From assembly GCA_903901045.1 (NCBI GenBank), contig CAIUPP010000140.1, positions 1-41,144 on the forward strand: a stretch of DNA of 41,144 bases. The letters are read 5' to 3'. The notes beneath the pieces are model-generated. The model did not search any database. It was given only the letters and a program-made list of their open reading frames with translations, and was not told the origin of the DNA. The stretch's first letter is position 1; every line of letters begins with the position of its first letter. This DNA is from an uncultured Planctomycetota bacterium (GTDB lineage Bacteria; Planctomycetota; Brocadiia; CAIUPP01). The translations under genes and the position numbers were made by a program. Below are positions 1-41,144 of the stretch, piece by piece.

Positions 1-171
1 GAGGTAATTGACTGGATAACGAGGGAGGCGCTGGATATACTCTCCCGTGAAGGGTTATCCGGCGCCGATGCCCAGGACGCCGCGTGGCGTCGGGCCGTGG
101 AATCCTGGTTACACCACAATGGAGTTATCACCGTCTCGGTGGACGGACAAGTGTTACCCAGTTTTCCGTAA
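1..171 (+). CDS. C-terminal fragment of an unidentified protein (cut by window edge)
   Basis: Frame 1 is open from the first base and ends at TAA 169-171, giving 56 residues of an acidic, tryptophan-containing helical stretch followed by a short strand-like end (VITVSVDGQVLPSF). No family is recognised. The first half is GC-rich like the bulk of the window, while the end becomes AT-richer. The next ORF continues in the same frame after the stop, so the two could be pieces of one gene split by a nonsense change, or two genes. Confidence is moderate that it is coding and nil for function. Confidence 0.45.
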   Translation, partial: EVIDWITREALDILSREGLSGADAQDAAWRRAVESWLHHNGVITVSVDGQVLPSFP

Positions 172-189
172 AATTGGTCTCATTATCTC

Positions 190-525
190 ATGGTGTGCAC
201 AGGCATGAACAACTACACTCAGCCGCCAGATCCTGGCTTCTATGGGTCGGAATTTGCAACGGTCATAGCGCCTGGTGCCTCAGTAATGGTCCATGCACAT
301 CCGATGGGGGTTCGTGCTAGTTCCAAAGTGGAATCCACATTGGAGAATATGTATCGGGACGTTTATGATTGGCGCAGTGGGAATATCTTCATGAAAACGG
401 TCGAAGTCACAGGTCCTGAGGGGCAGATAACAGTGAACCTGCAAGTTCCAGGTTTTGGTGGCAAAGCATGGTTCCCTAAAGTGCAGTTCTATCTCTTAAC
501 ATTTCTCAAAAATAATCAGCTCTAG
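190..525 (+). CDS. Hypothetical protein, 111 aa, possible detached C-terminal domain
   Basis: This ORF has no signal peptide and no recognised motif. Predicted character is mainly beta-strand with several aromatic and glycine residues (GFYGSEFATVIAPG, VTVNLQVPGFGG-like stretches), as in a small beta-sandwich or lectin-like domain. Codon use is clearly AT-richer than genes to the right. It lies in the same frame as the fragment ending at 171, with only five codons between the stop and this ATG and no convincing Shine-Dalgarno sequence. It may therefore be the detached C-terminal domain of the preceding protein. The gene for an exported helical protein follows at once. By position it matches the AT-rich tip of the 835-aa protein, which is followed by a paralogous gene. 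Function unknown. Confidence 0.45.
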   Translation: MVCTGMNNYTQPPDPGFYGSEFATVIAPGASVMVHAHPMGVRASSKVESTLENMYRDVYDWRSGNIFMKTVEVTGPEGQITVNLQVPGFGGKAWFPKVQFYLLTFLKNNQL

Positions 526-596
526 CCTAAATGCTGATTAATCGCAGTCAGAGAGTGTTGTCGAGGTCAGGCATTATTAATTATGGGTATTCTACA

Positions 597-1319
597 ATGA
601 AGTATCTAGTGTGGGCCCTAGTGGCGCTCGTTTTGTTAGTTGGCGTCCTTCTCATCTACAAGTGCCGCACAGGGGGAAGTGGACACGGTGAACCACTCCC
701 CTCTGCCCAACGAAGTGTGAAGGAACAAGTTGTGCGGGAGCGAGACGCGGGCATCAGGCGGATACCGGAGGTGCTTGAACAATCTGATCCCTTGCGATAC
801 TACGCTGAAGCAGACGCGGCGCTCGCTAGAAGTATTGACTCTTTGCCCGCAGAAAAGTTTGATGCTCTACTATGCGAGTTGGGAACGGAAGATGATGGAG
901 GCAGTTTGATTTCGGGGTATGTTACCAAGGTGCTGGCTCAAAGGGGAAAGCGTGCGGAACTGGTCGCGTTGCTCTCGCAGAATCCGCCGTTTGTCGTCAG
1001 CCGCACTGAGACGCTGGAAGTGTGGCTGGCCGAAATGCACTTTATTGATCCACCTCCGCTCGCTGCACCCATTCTCGTTTTGGTCGAAGCATACCAGCGT
1101 GCGACCAAGCCAACTGCCAAGGCCAGACTTCTGACGATGTTGGCTACGGGTTTTCCCTCTATACGAAAAGAATATCTTAAGAGTGATGACTCATTTGTCA
1201 ATGCTGTGGCGGAGTGGTATAGAAGTAATATGAAGAACATCGAGATGAATCCGAAGTATGGGCACTTCGAGCAGAATGTTGAGTTATTTGTCCCCAAGAT
1301 GGCGGGTGCCAAAATGTAA
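597..1319 (+). CDS. Membrane-anchored helical protein, paralogue of the 3869-4750 product
   Basis: The product is about 240 residues. The ATG at 597 is preferred over the one at 531 because it places a hydrophobic helix (YLVWALVALVLLVGVLLIY) right at the N-terminus, followed by a basic/cysteine-containing stretch. It is likely a signal anchor with the rest outside the cytoplasm. Residues from about 110 onward align with the gene at 3869: R-x-x-LV-x-LL, then PP, an EAYQRAT/ESYKKAT motif, GFPSIR/AFPAIR, DDSFV/DDAFV and a W-Y-R-x-N segment. No known family is recognised. Composition is AT-richer than the chromosome core. It ends 8 bases before the GTG of the 835-aa protein gene, so the two may be co-transcribed. 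A partner or immunity role is only inference from position. Confidence 0.65.
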   Translation: MKYLVWALVALVLLVGVLLIYKCRTGGSGHGEPLPSAQRSVKEQVVRERDAGIRRIPEVLEQSDPLRYYAEADAALARSIDSLPAEKFDALLCELGTEDDGGSLISGYVTKVLAQRGKRAELVALLSQNPPFVVSRTETLEVWLAEMHFIDPPPLAAPILVLVEAYQRATKPTAKARLLTMLATGFPSIRKEYLKSDDSFVNAVAEWYRSNMKNIEMNPKYGHFEQNVELFVPKMAGAKM

Positions 1320-1327
1320 GCGAGGGT

Positions 1328-3835
1328 GTGGATTGTACGTGCGGCCGCGAACTTTACAAAATTCCTCTCGCACCGAACATCGGCGACTCTGTGCGGAGAG
1401 TGAGCCGGCGACTCCCGGTTATGTCCAGCTCCGCAAGCGCGGCGTTCGGGCACCATGCGGACATCAGGGTGAACATCAACGAGCCGATCCCCGGAGTGGA
1501 ACTGAAGCTGCGCATAGCGCGGGGTGAATCAGGCTTGCCTCAGTGGATGGGTTTGGTGAAGCCGCCGATCATCGCAGATGGCGGGAAGACGGTCGTTCAG
1601 GACAAAGTCAGCCCCGATGGCTCGCTGTGGCATGACGTGTATGGTCACACCGCCCCGGAGGGGAGGTTCACGCTGTACGATGCGTACATTTCCAGCGACG
1701 CCGTCGAGAACGTGACCATCGAAGTCCGCGGCCCGGACCAGGCGGACACGGATGCGGCGATGGCGAGCCTGACGATTTACCAGAGACCCGGTGCGCCGAC
1801 GGCGACGAACGATGGGGACTCCTTCGTCTCTCCGGCGTATATCAAGGGGACGAAGGACCTCACCGATGCGGACGTGCTGTGGCGGTACGCTCCGACGGCG
1901 TGGGATGCGGACCCGCAATGGCAGAGCATCGCCAATGCCGGCGGCGACACGGTGATGGGCGACACGTGGTGGGCGATGCCGGTGCGCCTGGATGTCGTGC
2001 AGCATCTTGTCCCCAACTACTACATTACCGGAGACTACTACTGGGCGCCGAAGACGGCGTACCTGACGGCGGCGGACCGGACAGTGAACCTCGAATTCAA
2101 GAGCGTGGACTACGACGGCAACGTGACGAAGCTGCCGGACCGGTCGCTGGTGTGGAAGATGACGGTTTTCGGGGAGGGGGACCATCTGATTCAGGCGGGG
2201 GAGAGCATCATCGTCAGCGGGCCGCTGGTCCCGCCGTCGCTGCCTGCGGAGGAGATGCACCTGTGGACGGGTGCGCCGGGGGCGACGCCGGAATATGGTT
2301 ATGGTTGGGGGTACAGCGCGACCGCGCCGACGAACTTCATTCAGACGTTCGACGCCGAAGGGCACTACCCCATCAAGTCCGCCGTGACGGCGCAGAAGGT
2401 CGCCTATTACGGAGCCTCCGCGGAGACGATCGTCCTGAGCGACCCGGTCCAGTCCACCATCCACGTCATCAAGAAACGACAAATACAGGCGGTTTCCTAC
2501 TGGTACGGCGACAGCCCGCCGACGGCGGATGACGTGGACTCTTGGGGCATCATTGACAACGATGTGTTCTACGCGGACGTTTTGGGGTACACCACGCCAG
2601 TGCCCGCCGATGCGCGCTGGGTGCTGTACCTGAACCCGACGTATGATACATATACCGACTGGGCGGAGTACTCCATCGGGGGCGGAGAAAGAGCCGATCC
2701 GGCGATAGGCAGCTACTCCGAATGCGTCTGGCCGCTGCTGTGGTGGAGCAAGAAACTCGACAAGGACGGGGAGACGATGATCCCGTTCTACGCCAAGTAT
2801 TACGATGATGAAAAGGACGTCTGGCTCACGCTGGAGTGGGATGTCAAGGACCAAACGGCCAGTGCTACCCAAAGAGGCCCTTGGACAAGAGACACATGGT
2901 CGTATGATGCCGTAGCCGATACGTATCACGGCCACGCAAAATCAAATGATCCAAGTTGCACGCTGGCATCGCTTTCCAACATGATTACGTTCGCAGAAGG
3001 CTATGCCGCAACGCTTGTCGCCGTTGATGACAATGACATCCCTCTTGCGACCCAGCCGGCAACAATCAATACCTCCTTGCCTGTGGGGACGAAGGTGGAT
3101 GTTGGCATGCTTCTAGAGTGCTTTGAAGGGAGATGGAGGGACAATACAGCGGCTGCCGCCCGTAGCGGTCTGAAGTGTGGCTTCTCGACCCGTCTGACGC
3201 GTGCGGCCGGTTTTGCGGGGTCGCAGTATTCGGCGGCCGAAATAGATGAAGCCTTCACGGTTGGTACGCATGCTTCGATGGGCTGTGAAATTGGTTCGCG
3301 CTGGATTCGTATGAAGGGGCTAATTGATACGATATCGGCTACAAACTATAATGCCTATCTAGATGAGATATGCGGGGGGAACAGCCCGCCGTTTCCGGAG
3401 GAACGTTCAAGACCAGCTTTGCCTCTACCCTACGGTGTGCTGACAGTCGGCTACTCAGGTAAACTGATCTTGGTGGACGGCTACGACATCACACCGATGA
3501 AGGATGGGGAACGCGCACCGCTTGAGAACATTCCTCACTATGTGATCCTTGCTGGTTACAATAATAGGGACGCCGTATGGCATGAAGAATGGGTAACGAA
3601 GATTGACAGTGATCAGTATGTCGGGCACGGACGGGAAGGTCCACAGTCGTATGGGAAATGGCGTGCAATATTACTGAACGCATACGTGGTCGAATGGCAA
3701 TTGCTATCAAGACGACTTCACGTGCAAGCACCCCAGCCGCCCTTCCCTTACTGGGTCCCCGGCGTGGGTGCTAAGTTTCAATTTGCCGACGTAGCCAAGA
3801 TGTGCATGCGGTTATTCGACAAGCGCAATGAATAG
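1328..3835 (+). CDS. Large surface-like beta-sandwich protein with a compositionally distinct C-terminal third
   Basis: The ORF encodes 835 residues from GTG 1328; an ATG at 1421 (residue 32) is an alternative start. Neither has a strong Shine-Dalgarno sequence or a signal peptide, so the N-terminus may be truncated or recombined. Residues about 45-500 are rich in W, Y, G, D and T and read as consecutive Ig/PKD-like beta domains (FDAEGHYPIKSAVTA, VNLEFKSVDYDGNVTKLP). They are very GC-rich in codon use. From about base 2850 (residue ~507) codon use becomes much AT-richer to the end, with unrelated character including a CFEGRW stretch and a C-terminal region rich in Y, W and P. This looks like a swapped C-terminal module. 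A gene for an exported helical protein follows after 33 bases. Function unknown; adhesin or polymorphic-toxin carrier are possibilities, not demonstrated. Confidence 0.7.
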   Translation: MDCTCGRELYKIPLAPNIGDSVRRVSRRLPVMSSSASAAFGHHADIRVNINEPIPGVELKLRIARGESGLPQWMGLVKPPIIADGGKTVVQDKVSPDGSLWHDVYGHTAPEGRFTLYDAYISSDAVENVTIEVRGPDQADTDAAMASLTIYQRPGAPTATNDGDSFVSPAYIKGTKDLTDADVLWRYAPTAWDADPQWQSIANAGGDTVMGDTWWAMPVRLDVVQHLVPNYYITGDYYWAPKTAYLTAADRTVNLEFKSVDYDGNVTKLPDRSLVWKMTVFGEGDHLIQAGESIIVSGPLVPPSLPAEEMHLWTGAPGATPEYGYGWGYSATAPTNFIQTFDAEGHYPIKSAVTAQKVAYYGASAETIVLSDPVQSTIHVIKKRQIQAVSYWYGDSPPTADDVDSWGIIDNDVFYADVLGYTTPVPADARWVLYLNPTYDTYTDWAEYSIGGGERADPAIGSYSECVWPLLWWSKKLDKDGETMIPFYAKYYDDEKDVWLTLEWDVKDQTASATQRGPWTRDTWSYDAVADTYHGHAKSNDPSCTLASLSNMITFAEGYAATLVAVDDNDIPLATQPATINTSLPVGTKVDVGMLLECFEGRWRDNTAAAARSGLKCGFSTRLTRAAGFAGSQYSAAEIDEAFTVGTHASMGCEIGSRWIRMKGLIDTISATNYNAYLDEICGGNSPPFPEERSRPALPLPYGVLTVGYSGKLILVDGYDITPMKDGERAPLENIPHYVILAGYNNRDAVWHEEWVTKIDSDQYVGHGREGPQSYGKWRAILLNAYVVEWQLLSRRLHVQAPQPPFPYWVPGVGAKFQFADVAKMCMRLFDKRNE

Positions 3836-3868
3836 GCAGTACAACGCGTGCTATGGAGATTTCCCCAA

Positions 3869-4750
3869 ATGGTGAACATGCGACTGACCCTTGCAGCAAG
3901 CATCTTGTTGGTCTTCCTTGGCAATATGTCGCCAGCGGCTGATCCGGGTTCGGAACGGGCTGGCGTTGATTCAAGTAGAATGCGGGACTACAAGGAATTC
4001 GTTGCGTCATTAGAGCATGAATGGAATGCTGCGACAAAGGACGTGGACAGAAGAACAAAGGAAGGTTGGGTGAAACGAACGGGTGAGTTGCGTCAAGTGA
4101 TTGGCGCATGCTCCGCAGGGAAGAAGGACCTTCTGATCTATGGCTTGTGCAAGACAGCTACAATGTCGCAGTTCGAAGAGGAACTGCTGCCTGAAATGGT
4201 CATGGCCCTACTCGACGACGGCGACAGGACGCGTCTTGTCTCGCTTCTCGCGGGGCGGTCGCTGAAGACATTACGTGGCTTCTGCGGAATTGAATGGACG
4301 TTGGCTTTGACGATGACACCACCCGATGCCATCCTGATTATAGGCGAAAGCTATAAGAAGGCCACGAATGCTGAAGTGAAGAAGTCGCTTGTTGAAGTGT
4401 ATGCGGGAGCTTTTCCCGCCATCCGTGGCAGGTTTCCTGACGATGATGCTTTCGTTGACGAAGTCGGTCGTTGGTATAGGGAGAACAAGGACCGGCTGGC
4501 TGTAAATTATGACTACTTCATGCATGGTGGCCCGCCGAAGGAGGACGATGCTGTGTTGCACGTGGAGCGTGGTCCAATGGAACTATACATCTTGGATCAG
4601 TCGAAGTCTACGCCTTCAGGAAGGTCCATACCACAGTCTGGACCGCGCGGTATTCACGGACTGCCGAGATGGGGGACGTTGCTCGGCAGTATCATATGCG
4701 CGACGATTGTTGTTAGCGTGTTGGTGCTGTGCTTGCGACGGAGGAAATAG
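3869..4750 (+). CDS. Exported helical protein with C-terminal membrane anchor, paralogue of 597-1319
   Basis: The product is about 293 residues from ATG 3869; ATG 3878 and GTG 3848 are alternatives. The N-terminus (MRLTLAASILLVFLGNMSPA, then AADPG) is a signal peptide with a plausible AxA-type cleavage. The central 200 residues are helical and charged. Near the C-terminus a hydrophobic helix (LLGSIICATIVVSVLVLCL) is followed by RRRK, giving a type I topology with the body outside. Residues from about 120 share the LV-x-LL, ESYKKAT, AFPAIR, DDAFV and W-Y-R-x-N signatures with the protein at 597. The C-terminal linker and anchor are absent from that paralogue. It sits 33 bases after the 835-aa gene, probably in one transcript. 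Family unknown; a role guarding or presenting the large neighbour is inference. Confidence 0.65.
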   Translation: MVNMRLTLAASILLVFLGNMSPAADPGSERAGVDSSRMRDYKEFVASLEHEWNAATKDVDRRTKEGWVKRTGELRQVIGACSAGKKDLLIYGLCKTATMSQFEEELLPEMVMALLDDGDRTRLVSLLAGRSLKTLRGFCGIEWTLALTMTPPDAILIIGESYKKATNAEVKKSLVEVYAGAFPAIRGRFPDDDAFVDEVGRWYRENKDRLAVNYDYFMHGGPPKEDDAVLHVERGPMELYILDQSKSTPSGRSIPQSGPRGIHGLPRWGTLLGSIICATIVVSVLVLCLRRRK

Positions 4751-4932
4751 GAGTTCGGGGGTGTCTGTCCCTCTGTTGTCCCTCCCGTCTATGAAAGCGG
4801 GTGTCAAGTGAAATAGCAGCCATCAGGGGAGCATGGCGTTTTCTCCGTTTCGGATATTCTGGGGACATAAACCTATTTATCCCTGACCGTGGCGGTTGGA
4901 TATTGGGGGCCGCGCGCCCTATTCCCCTTCCC
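4751..4932. other. Convergent intergenic region at the accessory/core boundary
   Basis: This lies between the accessory region on the plus strand and the mevalonate operon on the minus strand. Nothing with coding character was found, and no strong terminator hairpin with a T-run. It marks the boundary at which composition returns to the GC-rich average of the window. Confidence 0.4.
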
Positions 4933-6303
4933 CTATCTGTCCTGGGGCGTGGGCGGCTTCGGTGAATCGTGGCTCATGCGCGTCTCAATCGTCCGCACCT
5001 TCTTCTCGGCGGCCATGAGGACGTGGCGCAATATCTGCTTCGCGCGGTCGAAGCGTATCTTCCCCTCGCGCACCATCTGGTTAGCCACGATCGTCGCCGT
5101 CTCCCCCACCGCTCCGGCTGAGATCGCGACGTTGCGCGCGTGAAGGATCATGTGCCCCTTCTGGATTCCCTCCGTCACGAGGCTCCGCATGGCGGCCAGA
5201 TTCTGCACGAGGCCAACCGCAGCCATCACTTCGCCGAGTTCGCGAGCCGACTTCACTCCCAGAATCTTCAGCGCCAGCCGCGCGGTGGGATGCACCTTCG
5301 TTGCGCCGCCGATGAGACCCACGGACATCGGCAACTCGATATTCCCCACCAGCCGCCCTTCCGGCCCGATCTCCCAGGTGGTCAGCGGACCGTACTTGCC
5401 CGAGCGCGCGGCATAGGCATGTGCCCCGGCCTCCACAGCGCGCCAGTCGTTGCCGGTGGCCAGCACCACGGCGTCGATGCCGTTCATCACTCCCTTGTTG
5501 TGCGTGGCGGCGCGGTACGGATCAGCCTGCGCGAAGGCGTACGCGTTGACGATCCCCTCCGCCACCACCTGCCCCTTCCAATTGTGCTCGTCGAAGGCGG
5601 CGGGGGCGATCTCCAGCCGCGCGCGCGCCAGGCGCCGGTCCGCCAGGTTACTCACAATGCGCAGCAGCACCTTGCCCCCCGAGAGCCCTTCCATGTACAG
5701 CGCCAGCGCCTCGCACATCGTATTGATGGCATTCGCCCCCATGGCGTCGCGCACGTCCACGAGCAGGTGCACCACGATCATCGCGCCGCGCGGGGTCTCC
5801 AGCACGCGCACCTCGACGTCCCTGGCCCCCCCGCCCATCTCGGTCAAAACGGGGTCCTGCTCGTTCGCAATCGCCAGGATTCGCGTGCGCGCGTCGAGGA
5901 TTCTCTGGCGGGCCGCCTGCGGGTCGGCGATGCCGACGATCTGAATCTGGCCGATCATGACCGCGTCGGTCGAGGAGGTTGTCAGCGCGCCATGCTCGCG
6001 CACGAGCTTGGCGACATGGCTCGCGGCGGCGATCACGGAAGCCTCTTCGACCACCATCGGCACGAGGACATCGCGGCCGTTGATGTGGAAATTCGCGGCG
6101 ATCCCCATCGGCATGCCGAACACGCCGATCACATTCTCGACCATCTGGTTGGCGATGGCCAGCGGAAGCGGCTCGCCGCGGAGGCTGTATCGCTCCTCCG
6201 GAGTGAGGTGGATGCGCGCCCCGAGCATGTCGAGGCGCTCGGCGATGGAGAGCTTGTAGAATCCCGGGAGGCGCGAGAGATTATCGTCGGTCGGCTTATC
6301 CAC
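4933..6303 (-). CDS. mvaA: Hydroxymethylglutaryl-CoA reductase, class II (degradative-type family)
   Basis: This enzyme interconverts HMG-CoA and mevalonate, the committed step of the mevalonate route to isoprenoids. The 456-residue length fits class II enzymes. All four catalytic residues are visible: Glu86 (VVEEASVIAAAS), Lys270 (THNKGVMNGIDA), Asp286 (ATGNDWRA) and His384 (KGHMILHARN). Each sits exactly three positions after the Pseudomonas mevalonii numbering (E83, K267, D283, H381). There are no membrane segments, so it is cytosolic. The start is GTG with an AAGGAG Shine-Dalgarno eight bases upstream. Its 5' end overlaps the stop of the IPP isomerase gene by 8 bases, so translation is probably coupled. 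In that context an anabolic role is more likely than mevalonate degradation. The nucleotide cofactor cannot be read with certainty. Confidence 0.95.
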   Translation of the reverse strand: MDKPTDDNLSRLPGFYKLSIAERLDMLGARIHLTPEERYSLRGEPLPLAIANQMVENVIGVFGMPMGIAANFHINGRDVLVPMVVEEASVIAAASHVAKLVREHGALTTSSTDAVMIGQIQIVGIADPQAARQRILDARTRILAIANEQDPVLTEMGGGARDVEVRVLETPRGAMIVVHLLVDVRDAMGANAINTMCEALALYMEGLSGGKVLLRIVSNLADRRLARARLEIAPAAFDEHNWKGQVVAEGIVNAYAFAQADPYRAATHNKGVMNGIDAVVLATGNDWRAVEAGAHAYAARSGKYGPLTTWEIGPEGRLVGNIELPMSVGLIGGATKVHPTARLALKILGVKSARELGEVMAAVGLVQNLAAMRSLVTEGIQKGHMILHARNVAISAGAVGETATIVANQMVREGKIRFDRAKQILRHVLMAAEKKVRTIETRMSHDSPKPPTPQDR

Positions 6304-7390
6304 GCGATCGACTCCTTACACGCCTCTGCTCCGCCCAATTCTGCAGAGGGCCCGACAGCACCACAGGGGCGCGGCGCAGGGCCGCCAGGTCGCGGCAGCC
6401 GCACAGCACCATCACGCAACGCAATTCGGCGAGCATCCCCGCGAGCCAGTTCCTCAGCCCCTTCTCTCCGGCGTGATGCAGCACGCGCAGGACGGGCAAC
6501 GCGGCGGAACCGAGTTGCGCGCCGAGCGCGATGGACTTGGCAAGATCCATGCCGCTTCGCAGGCCGCCCGAGGCGATGACGCGCAGCCGGGGCGCGCGCT
6601 CTGTTCCGAGCAGCGGCTGCAGTTCGATAAGCGAGGCGGCGGTGGGAATGCCCCATTCCTCCAGTTCGTCGCGCCCCGCCGGAACGCCGCCGCGCCGCAG
6701 GTTCTCCACGCGGACCCATGAGGTGCCGCCCGCGCCCGCGACATCGATCGTCTTCACTCCCAACCGCATCAGGCGTTCGGCGGTCTCGCGCGCCATGCCG
6801 CAGCCGGTTTCCTTCACAATCAACCGCTCGCCCAGCGCGGCGGCGAGGCGTCGGATCGCCCCCTCCGAGCGCCCGCGCGGCTCGTCCCCCTCCACCTGGG
6901 ACATCTCCATCGCAGCGTTCAAATGCAGGCAGATTCCATCCGCGCCGATGCTCTTCATCAATTCGACAATGCGCTTCAACGGCAGCGTCATGGCCTGTGA
7001 GAGCCCGATGTTGCCCAGAAGAAGAATATCGGGCGCGGCGGCGCGAACGTCGAAGGTCCCCTTCAGGCGCGGCTCTTCCAGCATCGGGCGCTGGCTGCCC
7101 AGCGCCAGGCCGATGCCCAGGTCCGAGGCGACTCGGGCGAGGGTGCGGTTGATGCGCCCCCCCTCCTGCGTGCCGCCGGTCATGGCGCCGATCAGGAACG
7201 GCGCTGCAAGGTCGCGGCCAAGAAAGCGAACGCGCAGCTCCACTTCGCTTGGGGAGAAAGAGGGCAGCGCCTGATGAATCAGCTCCACGTGTTCGAGCCA
7301 GCAGTTCTTGCTGTGGAACTCCACATCGCGCTCGCGGCAAATCGCGAGGTGGTCGCTCTTTCTCTGTTGTATGACCGCCTTATCTGCCAT
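6296..7390 (-). CDS. fni: Isopentenyl-diphosphate delta-isomerase, type 2 (FMN-dependent)
   Basis: The enzyme isomerises IPP and DMAPP using FMN and NAD(P)H, unrelated to the type 1 Idi. The 364 residues show the TIM-barrel signatures: KSDHL near the N-terminus, FLIGAMTGGT, GLALGSQRP, LLGNIG, HLNAAMEMSQVEGD (family HLNPLQE-x-x-QPEGD; the second glutamine and acidic residues are kept, the first Q is Met here), then VKETGCGM, DVAGAGGTSW and ASGGLRSG for phosphate binding. It is first gene of a two-gene operon with HMG-CoA reductase, whose start lies within its last codons. A sigma70-like promoter is at 7430-7458. The C-terminal tail is arginine-rich and slightly extended. It is a strong sign that this organism makes isoprenoids through mevalonate rather than, or besides, the MEP route. 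Confidence 0.93.
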   Translation of the reverse strand: MADKAVIQQRKSDHLAICRERDVEFHSKNCWLEHVELIHQALPSFSPSEVELRVRFLGRDLAAPFLIGAMTGGTQEGGRINRTLARVASDLGIGLALGSQRPMLEEPRLKGTFDVRAAAPDILLLGNIGLSQAMTLPLKRIVELMKSIGADGICLHLNAAMEMSQVEGDEPRGRSEGAIRRLAAALGERLIVKETGCGMARETAERLMRLGVKTIDVAGAGGTSWVRVENLRRGGVPAGRDELEEWGIPTAASLIELQPLLGTERAPRLRVIASGGLRSGMDLAKSIALGAQLGSAALPVLRVLHHAGEKGLRNWLAGMLAELRCVMVLCGCRDLAALRRAPVVLSGPLQNWAEQRRVRSRSRG

Positions 7391-7556: not shown

Positions 7557-8006
7557 CTACAGAGTCACCCCGGATGAAGCGGGGGCATTGGGCGTCTTGG
7601 GGCCCGACCCGGGCGCGCTGGGCGCATTGCGCGCGGGTGCGCTGGGGGCGGTGGAGGTTTCGGCCGCGTTCGCGCCGAGGAACGGCAGCTTCTCCAGGTA
7701 GGGCTTGAGCACCGGGATCGGGGTGACGTACTTGTTGACGATTCCCAGGATGGCCACGATCACAACAACCCAAATGACGGCGCGCACGAGCCGCCCGAAG
7801 AGGCTGCTTGCCTGTTTGACCGGCCGGAAGCGCTTATGGAAATCCGCCGCCTTCTTAGCGCATTCATGGCTGCAGAATTTGCCGTCGGCGATGCTCACCA
7901 CGCACTCCGAGCAGATGGGTCTGTGGCAGGTTCCGCAGCGCGCGGCGGCGGGACGGTCGTGATGCACGATGCATTGGGCGTTTCGATTTACCCCGGTTAC
8001 AGCCAT
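7557..8006 (-). CDS. B-box-type zinc-finger protein with one transmembrane helix
   Basis: The product is 149 residues. Residues about 10-52 hold a dense Cys/His array (C-IVHHD, C-GTCHRPIC-SEC, FCSHEC) of the B-box/treble-clef type seen in small bacterial membrane proteins, likely binding two zinc ions. A hydrophobic helix (VIWVVVIVAILGIV) at about 78-92 follows, then a short periplasmic-side segment. A low-complexity Ala/Pro/Ser/Gly tail of about 40 residues ends the protein. A Shine-Dalgarno GGAGG seven bases before ATG supports the start. Such proteins are usually of unknown function; the fold suggests protein-protein contacts at the membrane. It appears to be a single-gene unit bounded by repeats on both sides. 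Confidence 0.75.
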   Translation of the reverse strand: MAVTGVNRNAQCIVHHDRPAAARCGTCHRPICSECVVSIADGKFCSHECAKKAADFHKRFRPVKQASSLFGRLVRAVIWVVVIVAILGIVNKYVTPIPVLKPYLEKLPFLGANAAETSTAPSAPARNAPSAPGSGPKTPNAPASSGVTL

Positions 8007-8106
8007 GATGCATCCTCCTGAAAGGAACCGCGCCGTCGGACATCGACTGCACTGGGCGTAGGATAGCGTGTCAGGTGAGGAGTTTCAAGGAAATTCGGGC
8101 AGGGAT

Positions 8107-8214
8107 TAATGGTCAATGGGCATCGGTCAATTGGCAATGAACGGCAGACGCCGCCATCAGAACCGTCTCGCCGCGATGCGCGGCTTTCCGTTGCCAATTG
8201 CCCATTGACCATTA
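8107..8214. repeat. Interrupted inverted repeat (CAATGGTCAAT-type)
   Basis: TAATGGTCAATGGGC at 8107-8121 is the exact reverse complement of 8200-8214. Nested inside, CAATTGGCAA at 8128-8137 pairs with 8191-8200. The right arm overlaps the stop codon of the MFS gene, so it may serve as its transcript end. Related words occur at 39217-39241 and 40975-40988, so it belongs to a small dispersed family. Confidence 0.7.
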
Positions 8215-9390
8215 CGTCCGCTTTCTCCGCGCGGCAACCATCAGCAGGATAATGACCGTGGCCTCCAGGAGCGCCACGCAGCCCCCCAGCACCATCGTAG
8301 CGCGGATCTGGCTCGCGGAGTGCTGGGCCACCCATCCGCCCAGCGGAGGCACGACAACCGCGCCGGCGGACCCGGCGGAGACGATCACGCCGAACACCGT
8401 GCCGGTGCGTCCCGGATTGAGGTGCGAGGCATACCCCAGGAGGGTCGGCCAGGAGCCGCCGAGGCAGAACCCCGCCAGCCCGCACGCCGTCGCCGCCATC
8501 GCCCCGCTGTGGGCCGAAGCGGCAAGGAACGCGCATGCCGCGGCAAGGAGACCGCTGACCAGGAGCGGCGGAAGGTAGCCAAAGCGCGCGACGGTGGGGA
8601 TATATAACGCGCGCCCCAGCGCCATGCCGAACCAGAAGCCCGAGACCGTCAGCGCCGCGCGCGCCGCGACCACCCCAAACGTGTCCTGCACGTACTTGGC
8701 GCTCCACTGCGCAATGGTCATCTCCGCGCCCACGTAGAGGAAAATCGCCAGAGACACCGCCATCACCACGCCCCACCGGATCGGCGCCGCTCCACCGGGA
8801 TGAAGCGCGTTGCCTTCGGTGATTCGATGCCTGGGCAATCCTCGGTAGCCGAGAATCACGCTGGCGACGGCCAGCACAATGCAGAGACCGAAGCCTGCCC
8901 GCCACCCCCAGCCGATTGCAAGCGCCCCCGCCAACACCGCCGGGCCCAGCACGGCCCCCACGTTATAGAATATCTGCGTCAGGTTCAGCATCTTCGCGCG
9001 GCATTCCGGAAAGCCGTCGGCAACGACGGCGCTGATCGGAGACTCCAGAAATCCGCCGCTGATCCCGATCAGAAAAAGACCCGCCACGAGCGTCGGGTAC
9101 GCCGCGGCGCACGCCGTCAATCCAAGTCCCACGGACATCAGCAATCCGCCGAGAAGGATGAAGGGGCGCTGCCCCCAGCGGTCGGAAAGATATCCGCTGA
9201 GCAAAGTGCTGAAGATGAACCCCACCGGGCTCAGCAGCAGCAGGATGCCGCTCTGGGTGAGGTCCCGATGGAACTCCTTCGAAATGGGCCCCAGCGCCGC
9301 GGGGAGAATCTGGCCGGCGCTGGCCATCAACAGCATGCCCAGGCATCCGAGCGCGAAAACATACCGCCGGCTGCTGTCAGTTTGGTCCAT
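8212..9390 (-). CDS. Major facilitator superfamily transporter
   Basis: The product is 392 residues with about 12 hydrophobic segments in two halves. The MFS motif after helix 2 is visible as GYLSDRWGQRP, and the matching motif in the second half is weak. The N-terminus (ALGCLGMLLMASAGQILPAAL) and the gly-rich helices 4-5 resemble the sugar/FucP-like or nitrate-type branches, but substrate cannot be assigned. It sits downstream of purO and the small membrane protein with a 72-base gap, so may share their transcript. Nothing supports a drug-efflux role specifically. The stop codon lies in the arm of an inverted repeat. Confidence 0.85.
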   Translation of the reverse strand: MDQTDSSRRYVFALGCLGMLLMASAGQILPAALGPISKEFHRDLTQSGILLLLSPVGFIFSTLLSGYLSDRWGQRPFILLGGLLMSVGLGLTACAAAYPTLVAGLFLIGISGGFLESPISAVVADGFPECRAKMLNLTQIFYNVGAVLGPAVLAGALAIGWGWRAGFGLCIVLAVASVILGYRGLPRHRITEGNALHPGGAAPIRWGVVMAVSLAIFLYVGAEMTIAQWSAKYVQDTFGVVAARAALTVSGFWFGMALGRALYIPTVARFGYLPPLLVSGLLAAACAFLAASAHSGAMAATACGLAGFCLGGSWPTLLGYASHLNPGRTGTVFGVIVSAGSAGAVVVPPLGGWVAQHSASQIRATMVLGGCVALLEATVIILLMVAARRKRT

Positions 9391-23604: not shown

Positions 23605-23758
23605 GACGCTGTTTTTCTCTGTTGAAACCATTCTGCGAACCCCCGCAGGGGGTGATGGATAGTAGCCCACGGCGAGCGAAGCGAGTCGTGGGGGGCAAGC
23701 TGCTTTTCGGGTGTTAAGAGCCCCCGAGGGGGGCGACGGAATCTTGGCCGGAGGCAGG
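23605..23758 (+). repeat. Dispersed element, copy 1 (partial)
   Basis: The left end (GCTGTTTTTCTCTGTTGAAA) equals, in inverse orientation, the right terminal repeat of the 39.3-kb copy, and continues with CCCCCGCAGGGGG. From 23663 to 23755 it matches 39328-39422 with few changes, including CCCACGGCGAGCGAAGCGAG and the AGAGCCCCCG...GGGGGCGACGGAA stem. The right terminal repeat is absent. The 203-base gap between pgpA and the UbiA-like gene is essentially filled by it. Its GC stems could stop both convergent transcripts. Confidence 0.75.
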
Positions 23759-39261: not shown

Positions 39262-39475
39262 AAGCTGTCTTGCGCGGTTGAAATCGTCCTGTTCCGTCTG
39301 TCAGGCCGCGAAGCGGCCGTCGGACTTTAGCCCACGGCGAGCGAAGCGAGTCGTGGGGGATCAAGCTGTTTTTCGGGCGTTAAGAGCCCCCGCAGGGGGC
39401 GACGGAACCTTGGCGGGAGGCTCCATCGCCCCCTGCGGGGGCTCGCAGAGTGATTTCAACAGGGCAAAACAGCGC
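39262..39475. mobile_element. Dispersed element with terminal inverted repeats, complete-looking copy
   Basis: Left end AGCTGTCTTGCGCGGTTGAA (39263-39282) and right end (39452-39473) are inverted copies: 19 of 22 bases pair. Between them are strong stems: GGCCGCGAAGCGGCC, CCCACGGCGAGCGAAGCGAG and its partner, and GCCCCCGCAGGGGGC. No ORF. The right end reaches the stop codon of the SpoIIE-type gene. Most likely a non-autonomous (MITE-like) element or a structured RNA repeat. Confidence 0.75.
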
Positions 39476-41069: not shown

Positions 41070-41144
41070 GAAGCTGTTCTGCTCTATTGAAATCATCCTG
41101 TTCCGTTCGTCAGGCCGCGAAGCGGCCGTCGGACTTTAGCCCAC
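41070..41144. mobile_element. Dispersed element, third copy, cut by window end
   Basis: 75 bases matching 39261-39335 with few changes: terminal AGCTGTTCTGCTCTATTGAA, then GGCCGCGAAGCGGCC and TTTAGCCCAC at the very last bases. The sequence stops exactly within the repeat. Confidence 0.8.

Follow-up and report, generated by a model that had tools for sequence, protein, structure and literature searches.

The window analysed here, that is, the whole stretch of 41,144 nucleotides, is the entire contig C140 of an uncultured Planctomycetota bacterium, whose own genome assembly comprises 4.77 Mb in 154 contigs. A preliminary description of its left 4.75 kb had proposed two consecutive units, each consisting of an AT-rich tip followed by the gene of an exported helical partner, with a GC-rich core, presumed to be a beta-sandwich, between them. 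An ORF listing contains the reading frames where they had been placed. In the following we discuss the features from left to right.

In frame 1 the first stop after base 1 is a TAA at 169-171, past which the frame stays open up to 525. The first part (1-171, plus strand) is the in-frame end of a transposase-like ORF, which runs off the contig edge and found no match in a Pfam search. It is followed by a terminal repeat (171-201, plus strand; AAATTGGTCTCATTATCTCATGGTGTGCACA) present in four copies among the own-genome sequence examined. A DNA search with bases 1-400 against this genome showed that five more contig ends carry near-identical copies. Left parts of the element, equivalent to bases 1-101 or 1-86, terminate contigs C123, C125 and C133; right parts, equivalent to bases 57-203, open contigs C1 and C56; and the interior of contig C120 carries a 41-bp copy of the element end, corresponding to the terminal repeat. 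The right flanks of all copies differ directly past ...CATGGTGTGCACA(G), i.e., ...GTGCACA(G), and on C123 the shared frame extends upstream, by inspection, into a transposase-like reading frame. From the copies at other contig ends, the divergence of the flanks and the C123 frame we conclude that a multi-copy mobile element, whose end is formed by bases 1-201, disrupted the gene of which 202-525 is left. Over the set of copies (window 1-201; L034, L035, L036, L037, L038 and L039) the terminal repeat measures 31-41 bp, and copies interrupt the assembly at several contig ends.

The remnant of the broken gene (tip 1; 202-525, plus strand) is its 3′-end, about 106 codons with a GC3 of 0.49, to which no family could be assigned by a Pfam search. 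It had been taken for an intact ORF at 190-525; the ATG at 190, however, falls inside the element end, the gene remnant begins only at about 202, and what was described is the tail of a disrupted gene. The gene for partner 1 (597-1319, plus strand; GC3 0.55) lies directly 3′ of this tail, the gap extending from 525 to 597, and encodes a predicted exported or membrane-anchored alpha-helical protein of 240 amino acids, a candidate immunity protein or chaperone. Since base 1 is the edge of the contig and assembly, unit 1 is cut off and shows no core. The two-unit layout is real, but its first unit is truncated at the contig edge and has a tail broken by an element.

A mosaic ORF of 835 codons (1328-3835, plus strand) comes next. 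Its GC3 is 0.83 between 1421 and 2849, like the values of 0.82-0.87 in the HMG-CoA reductase, FMN-protein and MFS genes, and drops to 0.55 between 2852 and 3832. A change-point fit places the switch at base 2852 with an LLR of 37.2, against a best value of 8.6 among 1000 shuffles, and this adjoins the core/tip border that the preliminary description had drawn at 2850. As had been claimed, the core is richer in GC than the tips and partners. In a control set of 158 ORFs of at least 400 amino acids (496 kb of the own genome) the 835-aa ORF is the sole credible one with a high-to-low GC3 switch of this size. In most of the other strongly switching ORFs it is the 5′-end that has the low GC3, which is expected because mechanically called ORFs are over-long. 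A second high-to-low candidate (L050; LLR 23) was dismissed as a shadow ORF by inspection. We divide the ORF into a core fragment of host-like composition (1420-2851, plus strand; GC3 0.83) and tip 2, a 3′ part of foreign composition (2852-3835, plus strand; GC3 0.55) of about 327 amino acids, which is a candidate toxin domain.

The true start of the 835-aa ORF is doubtful, because neither a signal peptide nor a clear ribosome-binding site was detected. Its first approximately 30 codons, to 1419, are DNA common to another locus, on contig C56, where the frame is not conserved; the shared segment 1328-1419 is thus probably not the real N-terminus, and the first ATG past it is at 1421. Searches of 58 close relatives, 392 genomes of the phylum, 75 genomes of the class, viral contigs and plasmids returned no relative of the 835-aa protein and hence no homologue of the core fragment. 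Pfam, NCBIfam and PDB sequences held no match, and PHROGs gave a chance-level row only. A hit at E 0.0029 (L004), in a stretch without a matching gene, was rejected as chance. Pfam and NCBIfam recognise neither RHS/YD repeats nor an Rhs-associated core in the ORF, and by its sequence the 835-aa protein is not an Rhs protein; RHS_repeat is absent from the whole own genome, and no parent core gene is seen in the assembly. The same two libraries show none of the TPS/filamentous haemagglutinin domains of CdiA in the ORF as read, the N-terminal part of which may be missing.

Partner 2 (3848-4750, plus strand; GC3 0.59) begins at GTG 3848 or ATG 3869, tip 2 having ended at 3835. The protein has a signal-peptide-like N-terminus, a small predicted alpha-solenoid domain and a C-terminal transmembrane segment ending in RRRK. 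As first described, the two partners (597-1319 and 3848/3869-4750) are paralogous, with 31% identity over 123 amino acids (E 2.8e-9; 0 of 2000 shuffles as good). Export and a helical nature, likewise proposed at the outset, are predicted from their hydrophobic or signal-peptide-like N-termini and from an AlphaFold2 model, which is an alpha-solenoid with a mean pLDDT of 77, rising to 85-94 over much of the helical domain. Structural matches of this model are generic and weak, the best being Rrp1 (Z 5.9), Foldseek gave none at E < 0.001, and Pfam HEAT was not matched. The tips, core and partners belong to no known family in Pfam, NCBIfam, PHROGs or PDB sequences, in agreement with the original remark that no recognised family is present. 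PADLOC proposed JetB for partner 2 (E 7e-5; 63 of 234 positions), but this match overlaps the signal peptide and is absent from the paralogue, and we take it as chance. A repeat behind partner 2 (4848-4887) has further copies on C56 (twice) and C120. Beyond it, convergent with partner 2, lies the host-like HMG-CoA reductase gene (4933-6303, minus strand), followed by a likewise host-like gene for an FMN-dependent dehydrogenase-family protein (6296-7390, minus strand), by inspection a probable type 2 IPP isomerase; the two (4933-7390) make up a mevalonate-type gene pair. Elsewhere in the window, a short repeat family occurs in both orientations (23663-23752, 39270-39445 and 41080-41142), its members being 78-89% identical to sequence on C120 (L039:6227-6399).

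The two tips are not visibly alike, as had been noted: when the element bases are excluded, 42 of 1000 shuffles score as well. An apparent common motif, HYLMVCTGMNN in tip 1 against HYVILAGYNN in tip 2 (33 of 2000 shuffles), was rejected, because the tip 1 bases belong to the mobile-element end and the match is not significant without them. A Pfam search detected no toxin signature in any tip. Searched alone, tip 2 still had no match in Pfam, nor any in NCBIfam or PDB sequences, and its single-sequence structure model (pLDDT 31) is unusable. A papain/C39-like cysteine peptidase in tip 2, inhibited by an exported partner 2, is in our estimate improbable; the idea is a sub-case of the toxin-locus reading given below and overlaps it. 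The residues that we presume to be candidates for such a peptidase, C544 in DPSCTLASLSNM and H737 in PHYVILAGYNN, are motif-like only. A published survey lists papain-like and C39-like domains among those of polymorphic toxins (PMC3482391). Against this stand the searches and model just described, and the seeming second His motif, that of tip 1, is mobile-element DNA.

The DNA between 1300 and 1419, a junction to which we assign no strand, takes in the 3′-terminal codons of partner 1 as well as the opening 30 codons of the 835-aa ORF. It is 79% identical over 121 columns to bases 1573-1691 of C56 (E 1.4e-19) and matches nothing else in the own genome; with only two copies in total, an integron attC is not supported. 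On C56 (L035, bases 1-1700) the same element end is followed by a broken ORF tail (148-345), a gene for a WD40 protein (395-1675) and the junction. The two loci thus have element end, order and junction in common and differ in their contents: 446 of 1000 shuffles do as well as the match between their tails, and 279 of 300 as well as that between the WD40 protein and partner 2, so that neither pair is alike. The WD40 protein has a lipobox-like N-terminus and matches Pfam beta-propeller models, the best at E 5.8e-13, below the curated cut-offs. On C56 a beta-propeller occupies the partner slot; beta-propellers were not found among immunity proteins as of a 2012 survey (PMC3482391).

Past the C56 junction there is no ORF of 110 or more amino acids within the next 600 bases, and this, together with the cutting of tip 1 by the element and the missing start signals and signal peptide of the 835-aa ORF, would suit an explanation in which the region is dead debris, i.e., pseudogene fragments left by mobile-element activity with neither unit now functional. 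We regard this as unlikely, since both partners and the 2.5-kb mosaic ORF are open and have a coding-like codon-position composition, and in a published case orphan immunity genes are expressed even where the tip is not (PMC3150448).

A search with a two-row partner profile turned up relatives in three of the 392 genomes besides the present one; their gene content suggests that they are planctomycetes. A five-row profile recovered the same set with no clear additions. The earlier suggestion to search related genomes thus yielded relatives for the partners but none for the core. Both window partners are homologous to all three relatives, 0 of 1000 shuffles being as good in the pairwise comparisons. 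All members of the family have a hydrophobic N-terminus or a signal-peptide-like start, that from genome G113 with a lipobox-like LGC. Scans of genome contigs, viral sequences, plasmids and phages gave no match. Other candidates were not counted: L010, a weak match to the hydrophobic stretch of an unrelated gene; L009, weak and surrounded by unrelated genes; L022, a weak match; and L021, which is helical-repeat-like and has a similar C-terminal WYxxN motif.

The partner family lies in a recognised toxin locus in one case, on a 3.9-kb contig of G113 (L012). Here an Rhs protein with Rhs_assc_core (E 2.2e-20) and a 230-aa tip is followed by a 163-aa membrane protein and then by the partner homologue (2772-3632). 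The Rhs tip is weakly like DUF3238 (E 0.0037, below the cut-off). In G174 (L013) the partner adjoins small unknown genes and a TIGR04255 protein, and no toxin is seen; a 165-aa gene beside it (L013:8311-8808) looks by eye like SUKH-type immunity and has no Pfam or NCBIfam match. In G252 (L014) the homologue (8003-8824, minus strand) stands on the opposite strand amid genes that by inspection look like those for a prophage terminase, portal and capsid; lysogenic phages typically carry cargo genes at such positions. The preliminary description had set against itself a wide occurrence of the partners without the large protein. All three outside relatives do lack the 835-aa protein, but the family is rare, and one member lies behind an Rhs toxin.

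The G174 and G252 homologues, which have no toxin genes beside them, the generic solenoid fold with its weak structural matches and the lack of any toxin or immunity family match would all be consistent with a genomic island of exported proteins, unrelated and acquired horizontally, whose function is not one of conflict. The 835-aa ORF would then have arisen when a piece of a resident gene fused by chance to foreign DNA, and the partners would be duplicates of a generic helical-repeat protein. This explanation is possible but in our view doubtful, because C56 repeats order and junction with different contents, the G113 homologue lies behind a true Rhs tip, and the family is not only rare but patchy.

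The left 4.75 kb are best explained as what remains of a polymorphic-toxin-type locus, with an orphan tip and an exported candidate immunity protein, and we consider the case for this reading evenly balanced. The core and partner are outside known families; the layout and composition of the locus fit orphan modules, in that there is a sharp break in composition between core and tip, a partner gene lies directly behind each tip, and the same order recurs on C56. Counterpoints are the lack of a toxin signature in the tips, of a homologue for the 835-aa protein in the searches above and of RHS repeats or a parent core in the genome, as well as the partners without a visible toxin in G174 and G252 and the protein intervening in G113. 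The core/tip/immunity layout first suggested thus draws on the composition switch, the exported paralogous partners behind unlike tails, the C56 order and the Rhs link. The pairing of unlike tips with paralogous partners speaks against strict cognate immunity. The suggestion of a complete undescribed system fared less well: unit 1 is debris cut by an element, start signals and a signal peptide are missing from the 835-aa ORF, and no relative of the core was found in the genomes, viral contigs and plasmids searched.

For this proposed toxin-locus remnant we infer toxicity, immunity, delivery and an exchange mechanism as follows. A fragment of a resident gene for a surface or secreted core protein (1420-2851) would have received, at base 2852, a tip of horizontal origin (to 3835), which would have arrived together with the gene of its exported partner (3848-4750), while the mobile element cut an adjacent tip gene that had a paralogous partner of its own (202-1319). 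By analogy with CDI and Rhs orphans the tip would be a toxin domain that has to be carried by a full-length core in order to act. The partner, an alpha-solenoid in the periplasm or on the membrane, would protect the cell or escort the tip. A bolder proposal, which we think quite unlikely to hold, is that undescribed exported alpha-solenoid partners, placed behind unlike tips whose cores are of two or more unrelated kinds (Rhs and the unknown one here), are a general, not tip-specific, periplasmic immunity or loading factor, with a WD40 lipoprotein in the same slot at the sister locus.

At present this is a fragmentary locus with a plausible candidate role. If the interpretation is true, polymorphic-toxin modules exist in planctomycetes of this class on a core missed by current profile libraries, an exported partner family common to unlike tips questions the rule of one tip and one cytoplasmic immunity protein, and the partner profile and junction DNA offer a new handle for finding such loci.

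Published orphan cdiA-CT/cdiI modules usually lack translation initiation signals, have core remnants of varying length, stand in arrays, and are in some cases disrupted by IS elements (PMC3150448). The left end of the window resembles these and the rhs-CT/rhsI modules in its core fragment with a variable tip and an immunity-like gene directly behind, and in its units in a row, missing translation signals and disruption by a mobile element. Unlike them, it has a core that is neither CdiA nor Rhs and is without a visible parent gene in the assembly, and partners that are exported and paralogous between units. HEAT-type proteins are listed among immunity proteins, and planctomycetes among the hosts; immunity proteins are mostly cytoplasmic, secreted or transmembrane ones accompanying toxins that act at the cell surface (PMC3482391). 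The window partners would be similar to the HEAT type as modelled all-alpha repeat proteins in the immunity slot; they differ in having no Pfam HEAT match and in belonging to a family with signal peptides, transmembrane anchors or a lipobox-like site, whereas immunity proteins known so far are mostly cytoplasmic. The Rhs locus of G113, although it has a true Rhs core and an extra membrane protein between tip and partner, is like the window in carrying a partner homologue downstream of a core and tip.
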